Origin: Loxodes magnus
Lineage: Eukaryota; Ciliophora; Karyorelictea; Loxodida; Loxodidae
Assembly (NCBI GenBank): GCA_946699065.1
Contig: CAMPDV010000379.1
Coordinates: 62,001-126,000 of the forward strand
Length of the DNA: 64,000 nt
Direction: 5' to 3'
Shown here: piece after piece, positions 2,655 through 17,476 of the stretch
Position numbering within the stretch: position 1 is the first letter of the stretch
How the letters are laid out: the number at the start of each line of letters is the position of its first letter
Position numbers and translations under genes: made by a program
The notes under the pieces: generated by a model
What the model saw: the letters and a program-made list of their open reading frames with translations, nothing else
What the model was told of the DNA's origin: nothing
Databases searched by the model: none

Positions 2655-3831
2655 ATGGAATAATAGATCCGTCTTTCAAAAAAATAAATAAGGAAAGCAA
2701 GAAAGCAAGAAAGCAAGAAAGCAAGAAAGCAAGAAAGCAAGAAAGCAAGAAAGCAAGAAAGCAAGAAAGCAAGAAAGCAAGAAAGCAAGAAAGCAAGAAA
2801 GCAAGAAAGCAAGAAAGCAAGAAAGCAAGAAAGCAAGAAAGCAAGAAAGCAAGAAAGCAAGAAAGCAAGAAAGCAAGAAAGCAAGAAAGCAAGAAAGCAA
2901 GAAAGCAAGAAAGCAAGAAAGCAAGAAAGCAAGAAAGCAAGAAAGCAAGAAAGCAAGAAAGCAAGAAAGCAAGAAAGCAAGAAAGCAAGAAAGCAAGAAA
3001 GCAAGACAATAATAAGATCTAGCTCTTCACCTGAAGGAAAAATAATGATAGGTCCAGCCGAGTCAGTTAATCCACAAACTTAGAGTAACAACTTTCTTCA
3101 AGAGTAAATTGAAAAAATGAAAGCAATGATCATTAAATAAGATGAAATGATATTCAATTACGGAGATCGAATTCGAGAACTTATGGATTGCATCGAAGAT
3201 TAAAACAACGAATTAAAAATATTGAGAAGCTAGCTAATAAAAAGAAGTTTAGTTACAGAATAGTAATTATAAAAAATGTCATAATCAAATTTTAAATAAT
3301 CTCAATGCATGATTAAAGAAGAAACTCCAATCCAATTTTAGAATACAGAATAAAATAAACCTAGTTAAGAATAGGCAAGCACAGATTTAACTAAAAGAAT
3401 TGAACAACTGGAAAATAAAATATTTAAAAAGAAGAACACTGAGAAATAAATAAAAAAATTGTTGGTATTGCTACTCACGAAATCACTTACTAAGACACTG
3501 CAAAGAATGAAAGAATTTACAGATAAGAGAAGAGCAGAAAACATGAAAGCTTTAAATAAACTATGGATTACTGAAAATGGAGTTTGCAAACATAAAACTT
3601 TTAATACGCAACAAAGAAAATTAATAATGGTAACCATCCACTTACAAAAAAGGTCGGTGAAGACTTACCACGTAAAAAAATTGGTCTGCAGGTACCTGGT
3701 TGAAAGCCCAGGGATAGCAAACTTTTATTTAACGCTAAGTTCATTTTTATTATTATTATAAACTATAAATATCTATAATTTGGTATATTTTAATAGCTGA
3801 ATAATAAAATGCTTATTTTCTAAAATTATGA
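2655..3831 (+). CDS. Gene 1, unit 1: octapeptide run, coiled coil, CCHC zinc knuckle (one frame break)
   Basis: With TAA/TAG as Q, the ATG at 2655 reads into the octanucleotide run (KKARKQES repeated) and then a charged coiled-coil protein (for example DLTKRIEQLENKIFKK before 3430). The zinc knuckle CWYCYSRNHLLRHC (C-x2-C-x4-H-x4-C) is at 3460-3501 in the next frame. A +1 shift must therefore lie between about 3430 and 3460, near AAATAAATAAAAAAATTG, and no intron fits there. The shift is present in all four units. Gene 2 has the same coil and knuckle in one frame, so the break belongs to gene 1. The coil plus CCHC order resembles retroelement Gag or ORF1 (inference). The end is set at a TGA at 3829 and is uncertain. 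Only in this unit does the octanucleotide number put the ATG in frame with the coil. Confidence 0.6.
2697..3006 (+). repeat. (GCAAGAAA)38 octanucleotide run
   Basis: Thirty-eight perfect tandem GCAAGAAA copies plus a 6-base remnant. Eight bases is not a multiple of three, so the 24-base super-period encodes KKARKQES in any frame, and each copy gained or lost changes the downstream frame. The long minus-strand hydrophobic frames here are only the antisense of this run. Confidence 0.97.
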
Positions 3832-7547: not shown

Positions 7548-8830
7548 ATGAATATTCACCAACTAAGTGAAAAGCAAGTTGTTTTAAGAGCTTAAAAAAT
7601 CAATATTAAGATGAATGATAAAAAAGACATTAAAATTAATCAAAACAAAATTACTTTAAGATGTTATCTAAGTAAATTAAAAAAAATTCTAACTCGGAGA
7701 AAAAATATAAATCAGTAATGTGCAAGAATTAAACTTATGAAAAGTGAGTTAATGAAAGCCATGAGATTTACTCACCAATAAATTCGTAAGTAGGAGAAAC
7801 CCATTGAAAGTGAGGATTCGTCTTCCTCATATGAAGAGAAACACTTTGTAGGAGAAAAAAACGAATCTCATTAAGTTGGAAATCTATTATTCAATATATC
7901 TAAGTAAGAAGAGGCAATCTTTAACCTTTCAGATTAATTAAGATCCATTTTTACTTAGTACAAAGTGTTTAACGAAGAACTCGACCAAACAAAGACTTTA
8001 CTTGTCATAAATAAGCACATAACAAGAGAATAAATATGATTATAGTGCTAATAATCATCTAGTTAAGTAGTATCAATGCAGATAGAAAACCCTGTATACT
8101 AGTAGCCACTTCCTAAAATCTAATAAAAAAATATTGGCTCAACTTAAAAGAACAAAAATAGAGGAATTTCTGAAAGATTAGAGAAAATAGAAAGAATCCT
8201 TACCAAGAGGCAAAAAAAGCAAGTAATCAGAAAAAGATATTGATATTGCAAATAAACATAACATTTAATTAGAAACTCTAAAGACGTTAAAAACCTTCAA
8301 GTAAAAAAAAGTAAAAGAACCGCTAAGACAGATCTCAAGACTTTGAATTACAAGAGAAGGAATTTACAAAAAAAATTTAATTCAAAAACTTAGAGAGAGC
8401 AAGTTGGTCAATCTTCCTAAAAAAAGGTCATGGAACCCTGCCACGCAAAATTTAATGGGCCGCCTCAATCAAGTTGAAATCCCTGAAGAAGGTAAACATT
8501 TATATTGACTACTAGTTTATGTTATTATTATTATGTTACCTAAGTAATTAAGTGGCTATAAAGCCTAAAAAACCAAAAAATCTGGCTTTTGGAAACACCC
8601 TTTGTTTGAAGAAAAAATCTAGAATCTTGGCAGGAGCCATGAGAGAAAGGACTTGAGACTTTGAGTAGATTTTACGTTGAAAGATATCAGGAAATTAAGC
8701 TTTTTTGGGTGATAATCTGATTACAGCCTAAAAGAGAAATAAATTTTAAGGAAATGTTAGCATTGAAAAAGATTTAATGAAGAAATGTTTTTAACTTAAA
8801 AATATTATAAAAAGAGCATCACGATATTGA
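7548..8830 (+). CDS. Gene 2, unit 1: coiled coil, degenerate zinc knuckle, RILAGA tail (one-base break)
   Basis: From the ATG at 7548 a single frame reads through a long acidic/Q-rich coiled coil (for example ISERLEKIERILTKRQKK) to YWYCKQTQHLIRNS at 8238-8279, the exact counterpart of gene 1's CCHC knuckle. Here the first and last Cys are replaced by Tyr and Ser, and Trp is TGA where gene 1 has TGG. The RILAGA tail (8621 on, ending at TGA 8828) lies one frame away. Unit 3 has one extra T at the position equivalent to 8475 that joins the two frames, so this copy is probably a one-base deletion. A 24-base GTAAAC...TACTAG block at 8492-8515 looks like an optional, phase-neutral intron. Start could also be the ATG at 7611 or 7737. 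Confidence 0.65.
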
Positions 8831-8938: not shown

Positions 8939-11218
8939 TCATCTTATATCTACGCTTAAAATTTTTATGCGATCTTTATCATTATATAAAGAAACCGCAG
9001 GATAGAAAACTCGATTTTTAAAATCAATATCTTCAAAAGCAACTCCATAACTCAAACTTTTAACGCTGCTTTTAATTTCAAAGAATAAACCTTCTTAGAT
9101 AGTGTCAATTATCATTTTAATTATATCACCTTTTACTACTACTCGGCCATAATCTGCTACTTTTGAACCATTATTTCACTTTGAAGACAACAAATTTTCT
9201 TATATAAAAAAAGAATAGCCAAGTTTTTAAAAAGCTATATTTTTATTTAAATTCTTTCAATCTTAATTATTAGGAGTAATCCCTATCATAATTTGATAAA
9301 AAGAAATAATCTAAAATTATATTTCATATTTTTTTCCATACATAATTTCGAAACTTAGTAAAGAAGTTCCCCAATCTAAATCGAGCTTTCATGCCAATTA
9401 ATTATCGTCACTTAATTATATGCTTTTATGAAGTTTGTTGGTATCAAATCGTCAAAATAATTTTTAAAGTTATGGTTAAAACTTAGAAAAATTAGTTTAG
9501 ATTTATTGAAAATTATCTAATATTGTTTTCTAGTTATTTATAAAATTTTCTAAATTTTTAAGTGTATCTTAAATTTGGCTTATGTTCCTAAATACATAGA
9601 CAAATTAATTATAAATTTTATCTATCTCTTATAAAAATTTATTCTTTTCTCAGGTTATGTTTGATTGGATTTACTACTAGGTTTATGTTTAATTGCTTAG
9701 TTGCTCTTAGATTTATTTTTCTATTAAGTCCTGCTTCTCGTTTTAATTTTATATTTGGCTTAAGTTTTGGTTTATAGTATTAAACTAATTCTATACTTGC
9801 TTGAACTCTTAATAAACCTGATTTTTTTCTTAGGTTATGTTTGATTTGATTTACTACTAGGTTTATGTTTAATTGCTTAGTTGCTCTTAGATTTATTTTT
9901 CTATTAAGTCCTGGTTCTCGTTTTAATTTTATATTTGGCTTAAGTTTTGGTTTATAGTATTAAACTAATTCTGTACTTGCTTGAACTCTTAATAAACCTG
10001 ATTTTTTTCTTAGGTTATGTTTGATTTGATTTACTACTAGGTTTATGTTTAATTGCTTAGTTGCTCTTAGATTTATTTTTCTATTAAGTCCTGGTTCTCG
10101 TTTTGACTTTTTATTTGGCTTAAGTTTTGGTTTATAGTATTAAACTAATTCTATACTTGCTTGAACTCTTAATAAACCTGATTTTTTTCTTAGGTTATGT
10201 TTGATTTGATTTACTACTAGGTTTATGTTTAATTGCTTAGTTGCTCTTAGATTTATTTTTCTATTAAGTCCTGCTTCTCGTTTTAACTTTTTATTTGGCT
10301 TAAGTTTTGGTTTATAGTATTAAACTAATTCTATACTTGCTTGAACTCTTAATAAACCTGATTCTTTTCTTAAGTTATGTTTAACTTGGATTACTGCGGG
10401 ATTTAATTTTGTTCGTTGTGTACTTCTTAGTATTCTTTATCGTTTTCATTTTTTTATTCACTAGATATTTTTTGTTATGTCTTATTTAAGCTAATATTGT
10501 TATCATTTTTTTGTTTTTATTTTAATTCATATTATTCCTAATGTTTTTCATTTGCTATTTTACTTTCTATTTAGTCTATTCTATTTATTTAACTTTACAT
10601 TTATTCTTATATTTATTTATCTATTTAGTCCTAATTTATTTATTTACTTTAAATTTAAATTATAATTAAATTAACTTGAGTCATATTGATCTGAATTTAT
10701 TTCAATTATTAGTTTATGGCTATTGAACTAAAATTTATTTATTCTTATATTTTGTTTACATTTTGCTCAATGATTTTAATATCTTCTTCTTATTTTTTTT
10801 TATCGTTTATCTCAAAATTTCATTCTTATGTTTAGTTTTATTGTATAAGCTCTTATAATTTTTCTTGTAAATTTTAAATTTATTCTTGATGCTCATCTTG
10901 CTATTATTTCATTTCATTTAGCTAAGGTTTAGATTCCCTTTAGTCATTTTAAATCTGCTTCATGGCTTTTTAAATTTCATTTGTTTATGCACAATGATAA
11001 ATAAAAGCCACTGAAAAAATTAAGTAAATTAAAATTTTAGTAATCCTATCTCTTTTTATTTTCTTTTCTATTTCCTAGTGGTTCATTTTCATTTTTGAGC
11101 TAATAGATATTAAACATTAGTGATTTACCTAATCTTCATTTAAGATTTATAAGCCACAACGATTACAATTTTATTCATAATCATTTTTGAATAACAAATC
11201 TTTTTCAAGATCCGTCAT
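8939..11218 (-). CDS. Gene A, unit 1: zinc finger-TM-coiled coil-SPRY protein, 759 aa
   Basis: From the ATG (complement 11216-11218) to a TGA (complement 8939-8941) is 2280 bases, exactly 760 codons, with TAA/TAG as Q and internal TGA as W. Order: CNRCGLQILNEDQVNHQC (C18, C21, H33, C35; likely zinc site), a hydrophobic helix at about residues 59-74 (KILIYLIFSVAFIY), a Q-rich coiled coil, four 60-residue repeats (about 283-522), and a SPRY domain from about 585 (LFWRFD ... YGVAFEDIDF ... VFYPAVSLYNDKDRIKILS). SPRY domains bind protein ligands. The layout resembles TRIM-type recognition proteins but with a membrane anchor and no RING finger seen. Divergent from gene C across 167 bp. The most secure gene of the unit. 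Confidence 0.85.
9653..10372 (-). repeat. 180-bp in-frame repeats, 4 copies
   Basis: Four near-identical 180-bp units encoding 60-residue Q/N-rich coiled-coil blocks (NITQEKNQVYQEFKQ at the start). In the frame that joins the SPRY domain, many differences between copies are silent (CAG/TAG, GAC/GAT, ACC/ACG, AGC/AGT), more than in the other two frames, which supports this reading. The flanking coil is a diverged copy of the same repeat. Confidence 0.93.
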
Positions 11219-11385
11219 TTTTTATAAAATCTAATGATTTGATGCTTAAATATTCTAATTACAATGTAATATTTGCAGTATAATTTATTTTAACAATTTT
11301 CTATTTTCTATTATTTATTTTATTTTATTTTATTACATTCAAGAAATGTTATCGAATAATTTTAATGTTTAATATCATTTAAAAA
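11219..11385. promoter_or_regulatory. Divergent intergenic region between genes A and C
   Basis: Only 167 bp separates the start codons of gene A (minus) and gene C (plus), so both promoters must lie here. It is A/T-rich with no recognisable motif. Equivalent stretches: 29874-30035 and 48011-48172. Confidence 0.5.
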
Positions 11386-12071
11386 ATGGCACCTAAGAAA
11401 TAACAGACTTCTCCAACAAAATCAATAACTCTATATTAGAATTTTTAGATGTTTTTTCCTTCTTCAAATGGAAAATTAAAAATTAAAAAAGTTATTAATA
11501 ATCTTTATTAATCAGGCTTTAGTTATATAAACTCTTTTTGAAATTTAAAAGACTGAAAATTCAATAATACGATAGGAGAATGCTCTAAATCCATCATTTT
11601 ATTAATTTTAGGAGAATTTATAGACAGAATACATCAAAAATAGAACTTTAATATATGAAAACTTTAAGCCATAAAATCCTAAATATTAAACGAATCAACG
11701 GAACTAGAGCAACATACTATAACGAAATATGTTCCCTTTTGAAGGATAACGATACGCTGATATTTCAAATGCACAATATATAAATTGCGTACTTGCTGCC
11801 ATTTTAGACAAAAAGAAAAAACAATAATAAAAAGATAAAGAAAAATTTATTCAGTTTTTATTGTAAGTAAGAAGGCTTGCTTTACCGGAAAAAAATTCCA
11901 CGTAAATAAAGAAACTTCTTCATTTATTAAAAAATGAATGAATAAATAGAAAATGCTTGAAATTTGGAATAAATTAAGTAAAGTAATCTTAAGTTCATGA
12001 AGGCTTATGATAGCGTAGATTAAAGTAAATTTGAAGTGCATATATATTTTTGTAAATAAACTAAAATATGA
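11386..12071 (+). pseudogene. Gene C, unit 1: intron-containing small gene with +1 T frame break
   Basis: Same gene as the intact copy at 30036-30720. Exon 1 is 11386-11490, then a 25-base GT...AG intron (11491-11515). This copy has one extra T in the run at about 11852-11856, which shifts the last 70 or so codons. It is either a real inactivation or a homopolymer error. Product not recognised. Confidence 0.6.
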
Positions 12072-12906
12072 AAATCCAAATAAAGGTAAAACTGCAATAT
12101 TAAATTATGTTATTTATGCTCTAAATTATAAACTTTTAATTATTTCTTCATTAAAAATATAAAAATATAAATTTAAATTTTATACTAATAAAAAAGAATA
12201 TTAAAATTTAATTTTCAGAAAGCTTAAATTTGCTAAAAGTACTAAATTCTCTTTAATTTATGTAATTTACTTCCATTTTTTATATAATAAATTATCTATA
12301 ATTATTATTGACTCAGGATAATTTTCTATAACTTTTTATGCTTATTATGAAAATCTAAGTTTTATTTATCAAATCAATGTTATCTTTATCCTTTTAGAAA
12401 TAATTATCTTCCTTAAATTTTAATAATTTTATGGTTCTAAATTTACACTATTTGAATAAAAAAATTTTAGTTAAAATTTGCAAAAAATATTTAATTTTAT
12501 TCTAAATGATCTATTTTCTCTTCTAATAATTATTTAATTAAAAATATTTTAACAGTAAAATAAATATAATTATTTGAGTACTTTTTATAATCTTGTTGAA
12601 AAATTATTGAGAAACATAACTGAAAAATTTTTGTTTAATAGCAAAATAAAATTGAATGAAAGAAAATATAATAATTGTTAACTTAATAATTTACTTTAAT
12701 TTTTGAATTTGATGCTTATAAATATTTTACTTACTCTCAGATAATAATTTATTTAAAATTTGCATAATTATTGCAAATTATTTAATTTAGATATTCATTC
12801 TAAGATCAAATTCTTATATTTATAATAAATATTTTGACTATTTATTTTTTATTATAATAATAATTAATTATATAGCCTAAATTATTAGGTTAAACATTTT
12901 TAAATT
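12072..12906. other. A+T-rich spacer between convergent genes C and 3
   Basis: No gene-like frame, no repeat and no hairpin of note. It lies between two 3' ends, so it probably holds both transcript ends. Confidence 0.5.
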
Positions 12907-14230
12907 TCATTTTATTTGTCCTTATATAATTTCTGCTGGTTTCTTCGAAGTTGCTCTAAATTTATTGTTTTTCTTTTTCTTCTGCTCAGTGCTATTCTTC
13001 TAATATAATTTGCCTTTATGCTCATTCAAGTATCTTTTTCATTTTAATATTGCTTGCTTCTTTTATTGTTTTATTTATTTCTAATCCTTAGTATGATTTT
13101 CTTCTGTAAATTTTCCTCATTCCGTACAATATAATTCAGTTTATTCCAGAATTTGTTTTTTTCTTCCATTTTTTGTTTTTTTCGTTAACTATCAGCATTA
13201 TCTGACTGATTGTCATTTTCTCTTACAATATCAGCATCTTGACTTTTTCTAGCATTTGATCCATCTCAATGTACATCAGATCTCCAAATGGTTATTTTTT
13301 TTAGATTTTTATTGCTCTAGAAGTAAATATAAAATTCTGAAAATCTCTACAACTCTACTCCTTGCCATGCATGTTGTCTTTTTATTTTCTTCTTTCACCT
13401 AGATTCTAGATGTCTTTTTTCTCGTAAATTTCCTCAACCTTTTTACAATATAGTCTTTCTCTTTCACTTATTAGCTTTATTTATTATTTTTTCTTCCTTT
13501 TGTTTTCCAACTATTCCTATAGTTTCAATATTCTTACTCGAAATTGAGAAATTTCTAGCATTTTTTACACAGATGCTTTTGAGAGTTACAATAATAACAT
13601 CTTTTTGCTTGTAGTTAGGTTTAAATATTTAGTTATTTTCAACTTCTATTATCGTTGGATCATTCCTTTATTCTTTCAATTTCATTTAAAGCTGCAATTT
13701 ATACTGATTTTTTTCTGTTTTTTCTAATTTGCTAATCAGTTCTTTCTGCTTCTATTGTTATTTTTGAGATTAACTGGTATGTCATGTGAAATATTTCAAA
13801 AGTGTTAATGTCTCTTTTTTAGGTCATGAGTCTCGATTCTATTTTCTCCGCATGTTCAAGATTTTTCATTAACTTTTTATTATCTTTCTTCAACTTTTTG
13901 ACCTCTTTCTGAAGGTCTGGCACCACTATAATTAGCTAATCATAGCTTATTTACTATTAAGTGGTGAGATTCAAGACTTCCGAGCACATAATATTCTTAG
14001 CCTATTTCCTAGGCTTTTCTTCAGAGGTGGGAGATTCATTCTAATGGATGACCTTTTTGTTACCCTTTTCCTGGTCCTAGCCTTTCTAGGATGTCGTTAA
14101 CTCCTACTTTTTAGGAGCCACAAAGAATCCTGGCCTTGAGTCCTAACATTTATTTAATCTTTTGCAATTCCTTTTAGTAAATAAGATTTAAGATAGCAAA
14201 TATATTTTTTTTGATTCTAAGTGATGTCAT
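12907..14230 (-). CDS. Gene 3, unit 1: RILCGS module, coiled coil, two CCHC zinc knuckles
   Basis: The core frame (M at complement 13987-13989 to TGA at 12907-12909, 361 codons) carries a charged coiled coil (LQKEVKKLKKDNKKLMKNL) and two knuckles: CYYCNSQKHLCKKC (13558-13599, perfect C-x2-C-x4-H-x4-C) and CWYCKRKWQSVRQC (13195-13236, His replaced by Gln; its first Trp is TGA). The two modules, about 120 residues apart, share following residues, so the protein contains an internal duplication. An upstream ATG (complement 14228-14230) opens a frame with ARILCGS, the counterpart of RIFAGA in gene E. Removing a 19-base GTAAAT...TTAG block (13936-13954) joins it to the core and gives exactly 435 codons. 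That intron is tentative; the core frame is also open further upstream. Nucleic-acid binding is likely from the knuckles. Confidence 0.65.
13999..14117. other. Cluster of three 17-base hairpins with CCTA/TAGG stems
   Basis: AGCCTA-TTTCC-TAGGCT (13999-14015), TCCTAG-CCTTT-CTAGGA (14075-14091) and CTCCTA-CTTTT-TAGGAG (14101-14117). Each has a 6-bp stem and a 5-base loop. A fourth with a 3-base loop, GCCTAA-TTT-TTAGGC, is at 14418-14432. All lie in the 5' part of gene 3 or just upstream of it. Confidence 0.6.
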
Positions 14231-14384
14231 TTTATTATATATAAAAGTAGCTTCTATTGAAGCTTATTATTAAATAACTTAATTAATATTTATAAAAGTT
14301 ATTTAATTTTATGAAAATATTAAGTATACTAAAAAGTCAGAATTTTTTATTTAAAGAAATCATTAAGTACGAATCACAATCTCC

Positions 14385-14640
14385 ATACAAAGCTATATTT
14401 GAGGATTGATCTTCTCAGCCTAATTTTTAGGCAGTACCAAGCCATCATAAATTCTGTAATCCAATAAGACATGCAAAAGTTTAGACTCAATCATCCTTAT
14501 AAGAGCCTCATCTTCCCATACTAATTAAATTTGCACATCACCTCGTGAAATAACTAAGGGTGCAATTAGCAATAATAATAACTTGTAGTATGAGTCCTTG
14601 TATCATTTCCCTTTAGTACCATATTTAATTAAATTAAAAT
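14385..14640 (-). other. GC-richer island 4 (minus strand), probable coding fragment
   Basis: Richer in G+C than its flanks. On the minus strand one frame reads VWEDEALIRMIESKLLHVLL and LVLPKNQAEKINPQIQL, and a second also looks protein-like. A TTATTATTATT block followed by similar sequence resembles the piece joining the two halves of gene 2, so it may be another diverged copy of that family. Copies: 33034-33289 and 51171-51426. Confidence 0.35.
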
Positions 14641-15150
14641 AAATTAAAATAGTTAAATTAATTTTTTGTAGTTGCATTATATTTTTTAATTACATGAGAA
14701 CATTCAACTATATTATAAGATATCTATAAACGAAATCCTAATTTCTTAAAATTGCTTATTTAAATTAAAAAAAATAAATATTATGAATAATTTTAAAAAT
14801 AATTAAAGCTTTACAAAATATTTTTGATTAAATAATTCTAAAAAATAAATTATTTTAATCTTTTCATAATATAAGAAATACTTTATTTTTAACTATGAAA
14901 AAAATAATAGTATATAACTATATAAAAATAGACAGAAGAAATAAAAGGAAATAAATTTTTATTTTCTTCATTAAAAGAGCTGATTATAAAACAAAAGAGA
15001 AAAAATTATGAAATTTTACAATTCTAAAGAAAAGTTTTAATTTTATTAATATTATAAATTTTATTCTTAAAAATATATTATAAAATAAATATTAAATTAT
15101 TATGTAAATTAATATTTATGAAGTTTTTAAAGCTCTAAAGCTCTATTGTC
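14641..15150. other. A+T-rich spacer
   Basis: Nothing recognised between island 4 and the stop codon of gene B. Confidence 0.5.
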
Positions 15151-17042
15151 TCATTTTGTGGTAATTTTAATAATTTTAATTTTATCGTTTTAATCATATA
15201 AAGATATTGCTGGGTAATAAGTTTTTTTTTGAAAATCTATATTGCCAAAACAATTTTTTTAACTATAGGAATTGCAACTGAAACCTACACAAAAGCTTAC
15301 ACTTTATTAATTCGTATCAATTGTCATTCTAATTGATTCATCTTTTTAAATCTTAAATTTACAGATTTATCCTTCATTATCATTATTATAAATAAGTCAA
15401 TCTTTATTGACTTAGAAATATAAACCCCACCCTGACTATATGAATGCTAAATGATTATTTTTGATCTTTCAATTATAATTATTAGTAGTAATTCCTATCA
15501 TAATACTATTAAATGACTCTATTTAAAGGTCTATTTCACAAATCTTTCCATGTTAAATATCGAAACCAAGTAAAGTAGTACCCTATCCAGAATCAGATTT
15601 TCATGCTTGACTATTTTCATCAGTGAAATAAAGACTAGTATGAGCTTTATTTGCATCAAATCTTCAAAATAACTTTTATAGTAATGGATAGAATATCGAA
15701 AAATTAGATTGATTTTAATAATATGTTTCTAAATTTTTATTATCTTAATCTAAATTTTAAAATAAACTAAGACCTTAAGTTATATTTTTTCCTACTTAGT
15801 TAAATAAGTTATCAATTTTATCAAACTTTTAGGTAATATTTGCTAAGCTTTACTACTGGATTTGCTTTACGTTATAAAGTTAATTTTAAATTTGCTTTAT
15901 TATTAGTTCTTGAAATTAAAATTAACTTTATATCTTGCTTTAATTTTAAATTATTAAAGTAAATTAACTCTAAAGCTATTTAAACTCTTATAAAGTTTGA
16001 TTTTATTCTTAAGTTATATTGTTTTGTATCTGATACTGATTCTCTCCTTATTTAATTGTCTAATTTTAAAGTAATTTATCAATTTAGTCTTATTTTTTAT
16101 TTTCTTTTTATAGTTGACTTAATTTCTAGTTTATCTAATCAATTTAGTCTTCAATTTCTTAAAATCTTGTTTTTTCTTTATTATTTTTTTAGGTTATTTA
16201 GTTTTGTACTCGTATTTATTGCTCAGTTTCATATTTAGCATCAATTTAATCTTAAAGTCATTGTTTCCTTGAGATTTACTTCTAATTTTCTTTTTACATA
16301 TAACTCAGATTTTGATTTATATTGCTAAATTAATTTATTCTTGCTTAAACTCTTACTAAACTGTATTTTTTTCTTAAATAATGTTTGATTAAGTTAACTA
16401 AAAGTCTTATGATAAACTATTCGCAAATTCTGCAAACTATTAGTCTTATGAGAATTATTTTCCTTTTTTACTTTATAGTTGATTTAAATCCTAACTAACT
16501 TAAACTAGACCATTCTAATTTTATTAGAATTAAAATTTATCATATTAAGCAATCATCTTAATTTTATTTTTATTCTAGCTTATTTTTTATTTTATTTGCT
16601 AAATTTCTTATTTTTATTTTTACTAATTATTCTGCATCGTATTTTTGTCTAAAATTTAGCTTTATTATGTAAACTCTTATTATTCAGTTGATAAAGTTTA
16701 AATGTATTCTTGTTGCTAATTTTCTTAATATTTTTCTTAGTTTCTTTAATTTTCTAATGAACTTCACGAAATTTAAATCAATTAAACTTAGTTTTCTAGT
16801 TCTCTTGTTTTTTTGAAAAGATAAATAAAAAACCACTGAAAAAATGAAATAAATTAAAATTTTAGAAATCCTATCTCTTTTTATTTTCTTTTCTATTTCC
16901 TAGTGGTTCATTTTCATTTTTGAGCTAATAGTTATTAAACATTAGTGATTTACCTAATCTTCGATTAAGATTTATAAGCCACAACGATTACATTTTAATT
17001 CAAATTATTTTTGAATAACAAATATTTTTCAAGATCCTGCAT
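15151..17042 (-). pseudogene. Gene B, unit 1: SPRY paralogue of gene A with frame breaks
   Basis: Same architecture as gene A: MQDLEKYLLFKNN start, CNRCGLQILIEDQVNHQC finger, membrane helix, Q-rich coiled coil, SPRY (LFWRFDANKAHTSLYF ... YYPAISLYDQND) ending at TGA 15151-15153. SPRY tryptophans coded by TGA at 15664-15666, 15601-15603 and 15469-15471 match TGA codons in gene A. Compared with gene A it lacks one base before the finger, gains one T after the membrane helix and lacks one base in the coil near 16330. Start to stop is 1892 bases, not a multiple of three. No intron explains the breaks, which are kept in other units, so it is probably a shared pseudogene. It lacks the expanded 180-bp repeats. 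Confidence 0.65.
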
Positions 17043-17476
17043 TTTTTATAAAGAATAGATAATTTTATATTTAATTATTCTAATTACAATATAATTTTTT
17101 CAGTAGATTTATTTCAATTTAATACTTTTAGTTTTTTAGTCTTTTTTAAGAAATCTAATCTACAATTTTTTTTAAAAAGTTTTTAAATAAATATTTATGT
17201 GCTTTTTTGAAAGATAATTTTAAATGAAAAATTGATTGCTTTATTAGATAAATATATATAATTATTTTATGTGTTCTGTAATCAAATTATTTGATTTATT
17301 TTTATTTTTGCTTAAAATAGATTAAATATTTCCTTTATTTCAATTTTTCTTTTATCTTTAAATTAATATTACCTTATTTCTTTATATTAAAATCTTTATT
17401 TACTTAAAGATTATTTAAATTAAAAATTTTTATACATTTTTTTGTTTTATAAGGTTTTTATTTTTATTTAAATATA
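17043..17476. other. A+T-rich spacer between genes D and B
   Basis: Extremely A/T-rich with long T and A runs. It probably holds the end of gene D and the promoter of gene B. The exact end of gene D inside it cannot be set. Confidence 0.4.

Follow-up and report, generated by a model that had tools for sequence, protein, structure and literature searches.

Genes and tandem repeats at the locus

The window considered here is a 64,000-nucleotide stretch of DNA from the ciliate Loxodes magnus. It corresponds to C379:62001-126000, where C379 denotes contig CAMPDV010000379.1 of an assembly with 705,730,643 bases in 7843 contigs. Excerpts of the published account describe the macronuclear assembly of this species as 706 Mbp in size and repeat-rich, with NCBI table 27 used as its genetic code (PMC11441545). 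Within the window, tandem units that are ~99% alike recur at a spacing of 18.1 to 18.7 kb. The contig is 301,705 bases long, and its first 250 kb were surveyed. In this portion the array has seven units marked by SPRY genes at a spacing of 18.1 to 20.0 kb. These units span about C379:24166 to 155700, and lone relatives lie at C379 positions 12916 and 167517. Rfam yields no match in the window at gathering scores, and ARAGORN finds no tRNA there.

Two paralogous SPRY genes, A and B (Table 1), are ordinary users of the genetic code that reside within this tandem array, whose units are ~18 to 20 kb long. To the eye, gene A begins with a zinc-finger-like CxxC...H..C motif. Hydrophobic residues follow in a stretch of their own, and after these come four repeats of 60 codons each and, at the end, a SPRY-like part. 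It contains six internal TGA codons and a single TGG, and its 85 TAA and 23 TAG codons compare with 42 CAA/CAG. A shortage of coding UGA shortly ahead of the stop is a feature of table 27. In gene A the last internal TGA lies 79 codons upstream of the stop, but Trp is sparse anyway in that part of the domain. In gene B, the frame opened by the ATG at 17042 is not continuous with the SPRY frame, which carries TGA at 17031, 16686, 16542 and 16260 in the upstream region.

Table 1. Features of the window and their coordinates
Feature	Position	Strand	Remarks
Zinc-knuckle gene 1 frame	2995..3780	+	Contains CWYCYSRNHLLRHC; TGG at 3463
Zinc-knuckle gene 2 frame	7548..8500	+	TGA at 8241; knuckle ligands gone
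Gene A	8939..11218	-	One open frame, ATG 11218 to TGA 8939-8941; 759 codons
Gene A terminal TGA	8939..8941	-	GC 0.28 in 60 nt upstream, 0.13 downstream
Common TGA 1	A 9452..9454 = B 15664-15666	-	Alignment column (38 rows): F 19, TGA 3, TGG 0
Common TGA 2	A 9389..9391 = B 15601-15603	-	Alignment column: K 21, TGA 2 (those of A and B), TGG 1
Common TGA 3	A 9257..9259 = B 15469-15471	-	Alignment column: TGA 8, F 4, TGG 2, N 1
Gene B SPRY part	15151..15837	-	TGA at codons 57, 78, 122 and 146; terminal TGA 15151-15153
Gene B upstream part	15838..17042	-	Start-like segment with 90% DNA identity to that of A; out of frame with SPRY part

A first-pass annotation of the window had named eight codons, namely six TGAs in the SPRY genes, the TGA at 8241 and the TGG at 3463, and all of them are in place. 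It took the pairing of the last two as a sign that TGA encodes Trp in a zinc-knuckle family, but this argument fails. Near 8241, gene 2 reads RYWYCKQTQHLIRNSKD in place of its gene 1 counterpart, CWYCYSRNHLLRHCKE, so the knuckle ligands have been lost in gene 2. Since the ligands are lost, we rejected the pair as proof that TGA is Trp. The same loss is found, in identical form, in the seven array copies recovered. Gene 1 has no Pfam match at E 0.1.

The SPRY assignment of genes A and B did not hold up by Pfam score. Gene A has no match to PF00622, and gene B reaches 21.7 bits, below the curated cut-off of 26.3. The fold found is the PRYSPRY beta-sandwich. A comparison of gene B with a large protein set returned 70 candidates, none of them at E 0.001, and none of the papers searched combines SPRY and Loxodes. 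A Pfam search across the TGA positions had been suggested as a check on their meaning, and it does not discriminate. Five different residues were placed at TGA in both genes, and gene B then scores 21.7 bits for Trp, 22.2 for Cys, 24.5 for Ser, 26.2 for Arg and 26.3 for Gly. Trp does not raise the score, and this line of evidence was dropped.

Coincident TGA codons in genes A and B

Alignment of the SPRY parts of the two genes covers 223 codons, and the residues at 97 of these are identical. As the first-pass annotation had proposed, A and B have TGA at three common positions. If the four TGAs in each gene were placed at random, three coincidences would arise with P = 8.7e-6. The fourth TGA of each SPRY part is unaligned (A 9176-9178, B 15397-15399), and the TGG of gene A at 9371-9373 is aligned to TAG in gene B. 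Differences at codon positions 1, 2 and 3 number 79, 75 and 103, and this third-position excess points to older constraint.

Copies within the array have no clear sign of purifying selection. Among the seven copies, the SPRY part of A has accumulated 4 synonymous and 24 nonsynonymous changes, and that of B has 2 and 6. One array copy of A carries TAA at a TGA position common to A and B. Constraint is thus not clearly visible in the array, and the window alone would provide modest evidence. The SPRY argument needed relatives from elsewhere in the genome.

These features of the array leave room for an explanation that concerns the two genes rather than the code of the genome, namely that A and B are decaying repeats whose TGAs are disabling stops. 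Variation among array copies with no clear purifying selection, the out-of-frame upstream part of gene B and its extra TGAs are all in keeping with decay. However, gene A is a single open frame in 7/7 copies (700 to 1240 codons) even as its repeat number varies from 3 to 12. The A/B frame remains alignable with its surplus of third-position changes, and the association of TGA with Trp described below comes from 38 alignment rows, 36 of which lie elsewhere in the genome. We regard decay as unlikely.

Codon meanings in the SPRY family

A broader alignment of 38 rows was assembled from genes A and B and 36 of the 134 SPRY matches in the genome. The choice of the 36 was our own and non-random, being biased to high scores and to matches that bear TGA. 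Before the rows were aligned, every TAA, TAG and TGA was replaced by X, and significance was assessed with 5000 permutations. (An earlier alignment in which TGA had been pre-set as Trp gave a 12.2-fold Trp enrichment and was set aside as evidence.) Relative to background, residues found in other rows opposite the 52 TGA cells are enriched 11.8-fold for Trp, a value reached by 0/5000 permutations, followed by Phe (3.1-fold) and Tyr (2.5-fold). TGG cells have the same leading residues (Trp, Tyr and Phe). These profiles support the reading of internal UGA as Trp.

Support is uneven among the three TGA positions common to A and B, at each of which the first-pass annotation had assigned Trp. The assignment is well backed at 9257/15469. 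The column for 9389/15601 has one TGG, and that for 9452/15664 has none.

The idea that internal UGA encodes some other residue, such as Cys, is scarcely credible. At one codon of gene A, 5/7 array copies have TGA and the first window copy, by eye, has TGT, but Cys is outside the six residues most enriched at TGA columns, and the profile of TGT columns differs.

TAA columns favor Gln (2.4-fold, 0/5000 permutations), then Glu and Lys. The signal for TAG is weaker, with Arg and Gln each enriched 1.8-fold (3/5000 permutations for Gln). Thus, UAA and UAG both appear to encode Gln. This agrees with the earlier observation that TAA and TAG stand for Gln dozens of times in this DNA, and with the CAG/TAG swap it reported between 180-base repeats of gene A, which is visible by eye.

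Termination at gene ends

Genes A and B both end on TGA, as annotated, and each does so in 7/7 array copies. We used the 34 of 36 SPRY matches that have enough flanking sequence and defined a near-end TGA as the next TGA no more than 25 codons past the end of the domain. Thirteen of the 34 loci qualify; in the other 21, which were left out, the next TGA is more than 25 codons away. Mean GC content falls from 0.323 before to 0.176 after the 13 near-end TGAs (Wilcoxon P 0.0005), and there is no drop across 30 internal TGAs (0.311 before, 0.307 after). The stop of gene B has GC contents of 0.18 and 0.18 on its two sides across 60 nt, and of 0.22 and 0.13 across 200 nt. Published values in the excerpts of PMC11441545 are 33.5% GC for coding sequence and 18.6% for 3' untranslated regions. 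Base composition is therefore consistent with UGA acting as the stop codon at gene ends.

The code of Condylostoma (table 28), in which UAA and UAG also terminate, assigns the same sense meanings to these codons. It is very improbable here. A and B stop on TGA in every array copy, an observation that concerns the ends of these two genes, and the excerpts of PMC11441545 state that UGA is the sole stop codon in karyorelicts, including Loxodes.

Candidate transfer RNAs for UGA and UAA

An initial tRNA-Trp pattern matched eight sites in the genome. Two of these lie on contig C110 and are tRNA-Trp(CCA) in which all five stem positions pair; the other six are not tRNAs by ARAGORN. Folding with ViennaRNA alone gave no cloverleaf for the C110 pair, so their anticodon stem was assigned by Rfam alignment and by inspection of the sequence. 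A search with one C110 tRNA-Trp scored 40 among 131 candidates, 34 of the 40 being on contig C148. The six C148 copies that were read are all identical, with a CCA anticodon and the stem UUCGA/UCGAC. U27 faces C43 in this tRNA, so four stem pairs remain.

A pattern that accommodates either type of stem matches the genome at 74 sites, of which 72 have the broken pair, with the same stem letters (all on C148), and two have the full stem (C110). Most of the broken-pair tRNAs (66 of 72) occur in one run with a unit spacing of mostly 241 bases. Copies of tRNA-Trp(CCA) that keep all 5 bp of the stem are L058, L059 and L066. The last of these, a third C110 copy, falls outside the two-stem pattern, as does the damaged L067 on contig C7736.

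A tRNA-Trp with a 4-bp stem has already been reported in Loxodes by Swart and others (cited in PMC13092985 and PMC12005148), and no copy number for it was found in the excerpts of these two papers. They differ on the broken pair in other organisms. PMC12005148, in the part at hand, gives unpaired U26 and C42 in Amoebophrya and the same in Condylostoma, whereas the corresponding part of PMC13092985 gives 26C.42U for Blastocrithidia and Condylostoma, with the bases on opposite sides. In the Loxodes tRNA described above, the 5' base of the broken pair is U.

A tRNA-Trp with a UCA anticodon had been put forward as a possible reader of UGA. None was found with two narrow patterns that cover few tRNA bodies, and the CCA tRNA with a 4-bp anticodon stem is the likelier reader of this codon. 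A suppressor tRNA-Gln had been suggested as well. A pattern with a UUA or CUA anticodon in a tRNA-Gln-like body has 189 matches in the genome, compared to one in a reversed control. Among the 100 matches listed, the anticodon is TTA in every one and CTA in none, and the two matches that were read are both tRNAs with a TTA anticodon. We take these UUA-anticodon tRNAs to be putative Gln carriers from their likeness to eukaryotic tRNA-Gln. A general tRNA search gave 63 matches, and the seven that were read are tRNA-Lys(TTT).

Release factor eRF1

Three matches to eRF1_1 are found in the genome, two on contig C196 and one at C2:1762690. The latter was rejected as eRF1 because the frames examined lack NIKS; it may be Pelota. 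One C196 copy was read, and its alignment to human eRF1 scores 425 bits. By eye, this protein has Ala at human Ser70, Ala at Glu55, RAQ for TAS before NIKS, and Phe for the first Tyr of YxCxxxF, and it retains GTS and NIKS. The list of motifs was taken from excerpts of PMC12153298, which also link a Ser70Gly change in Blastocrithidia eRF1 to UGA readthrough in that organism.

A context-dependent code and its possible mechanism

Evidence from the SPRY family and from tRNAs of the same genome supports context-dependent UGA and UAR codons that specify Gln. The first-pass annotation had proposed a code of this kind, either table 27 or table 28, and table 27 is the better fit. We chose it of the two because it has been published for L. 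magnus. The karyorelict nuclear code, in which UAA and UAG are Gln and UGA is Trp inside coding sequences and stop near their ends, is very probably the explanation for these sequences (roughly 95%). The code itself is already known and in print.

As listed by NCBI for Loxodes and Parduczia, table 27 has the same Gln meaning for UAA and UAG and the same dual meaning for UGA, and no difference in code was seen. Relative to published work on table 27, copy numbers of decoding tRNAs are added here. Condylostoma magnum likewise uses all three stop codons as sense codons with context-dependent termination (PMC4967479, excerpts). However, UAA and UAG also terminate in that organism, whereas TGA is the sole terminator of A and B. 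Blastocrithidia has in common with Loxodes a tRNA-Trp(CCA) whose uppermost stem pair is broken, as well as a change at eRF1 residue 70. The two systems differ in that this residue is Ala here, UAR encodes Gln rather than Glu, and UGA rather than UAA terminates.

Studies of other species (PMC4967479, PMC13092985, PMC12153298; excerpts) suggest how such a code might operate, and the decoding parts themselves are found in the Loxodes genome. Most likely, tRNA-Trp(CCA) with the 4-bp stem would read internal UGA as a near-cognate. The altered eRF1 would compete poorly at these codons, and a nearby poly(A) tail or mRNA 3' end would tip UGA toward termination. We tentatively propose, as an idea with somewhat less than even odds, that UGA decoding is partly set by gene dosage. 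The near-cognate tRNA-Trp(CCA) with a 4-bp stem is encoded by about 72 genes that are nearly identical and lie mostly in one tandem array. This family, combined with an eRF1 that is changed at several stop-recognition residues (Ser70Ala included), might make sense decoding the default except near the poly(A) tail.

The use of one codon as both sense and stop is rare, and the window reveals an instance plainly from raw sequence. To this the genome adds a list of parts: a large family of tRNA-Trp with a 4-bp stem accompanied by a few 5-bp copies, a family of UUA tRNAs and an altered eRF1. This list makes the competition model of ambiguous stop codons testable by changes in dosage and by eRF1 swaps.

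Repeats and possible exchange in the SPRY genes

The paralogous SPRY-like genes A and B have 5' segments with 90% DNA similarity, yet the SPRY parts share only 43% of their residues. This disparity between sequences suggests that conversion or a late exchange has taken place. Gene A also carries an in-frame repeat, with 3 to 12 units among the seven array copies. Elsewhere in the window, an 8-base tandem repeat (gaaagcaa) reaches as far as the reading frame of zinc-knuckle gene 1.

Repeats and tRNA clusters (window coordinates unless prefixed by assembly, G000, and contig)
Feature	Position	Unit	Copies
5' segments of A / B	10993-11290 / 16817-17114		
In-frame repeat, gene A	9626-10395	180 bases	4 (copy at this position)
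gaaagcaa repeat	2693-3006	8 bases	
TTA-anticodon tRNA core	G000:C214:232607-237600	spacing ~275 bases	at least 19
tRNA-Trp(CCA) core	G000:C148:155450-209574	mostly 241 bases (run of 66)	72
tRNA bodies L058, L059, L066, L068, L069	G000:C110:361709-473962		

tRNA clusters elsewhere in the genome

Pattern searches of the genome located two clusters. The TTA-anticodon copies belong to a set of 189 genome-wide matches. The tRNA-Trp(CCA) matches, all on one contig, have a 4-bp anticodon stem, and 66 of them form a single run. On a third contig, closely similar tRNA bodies bear Trp(CCA), Arg(CCT) and Met(CAT) anticodons, so that it appears as if anticodons had been switched within one tRNA-like family.
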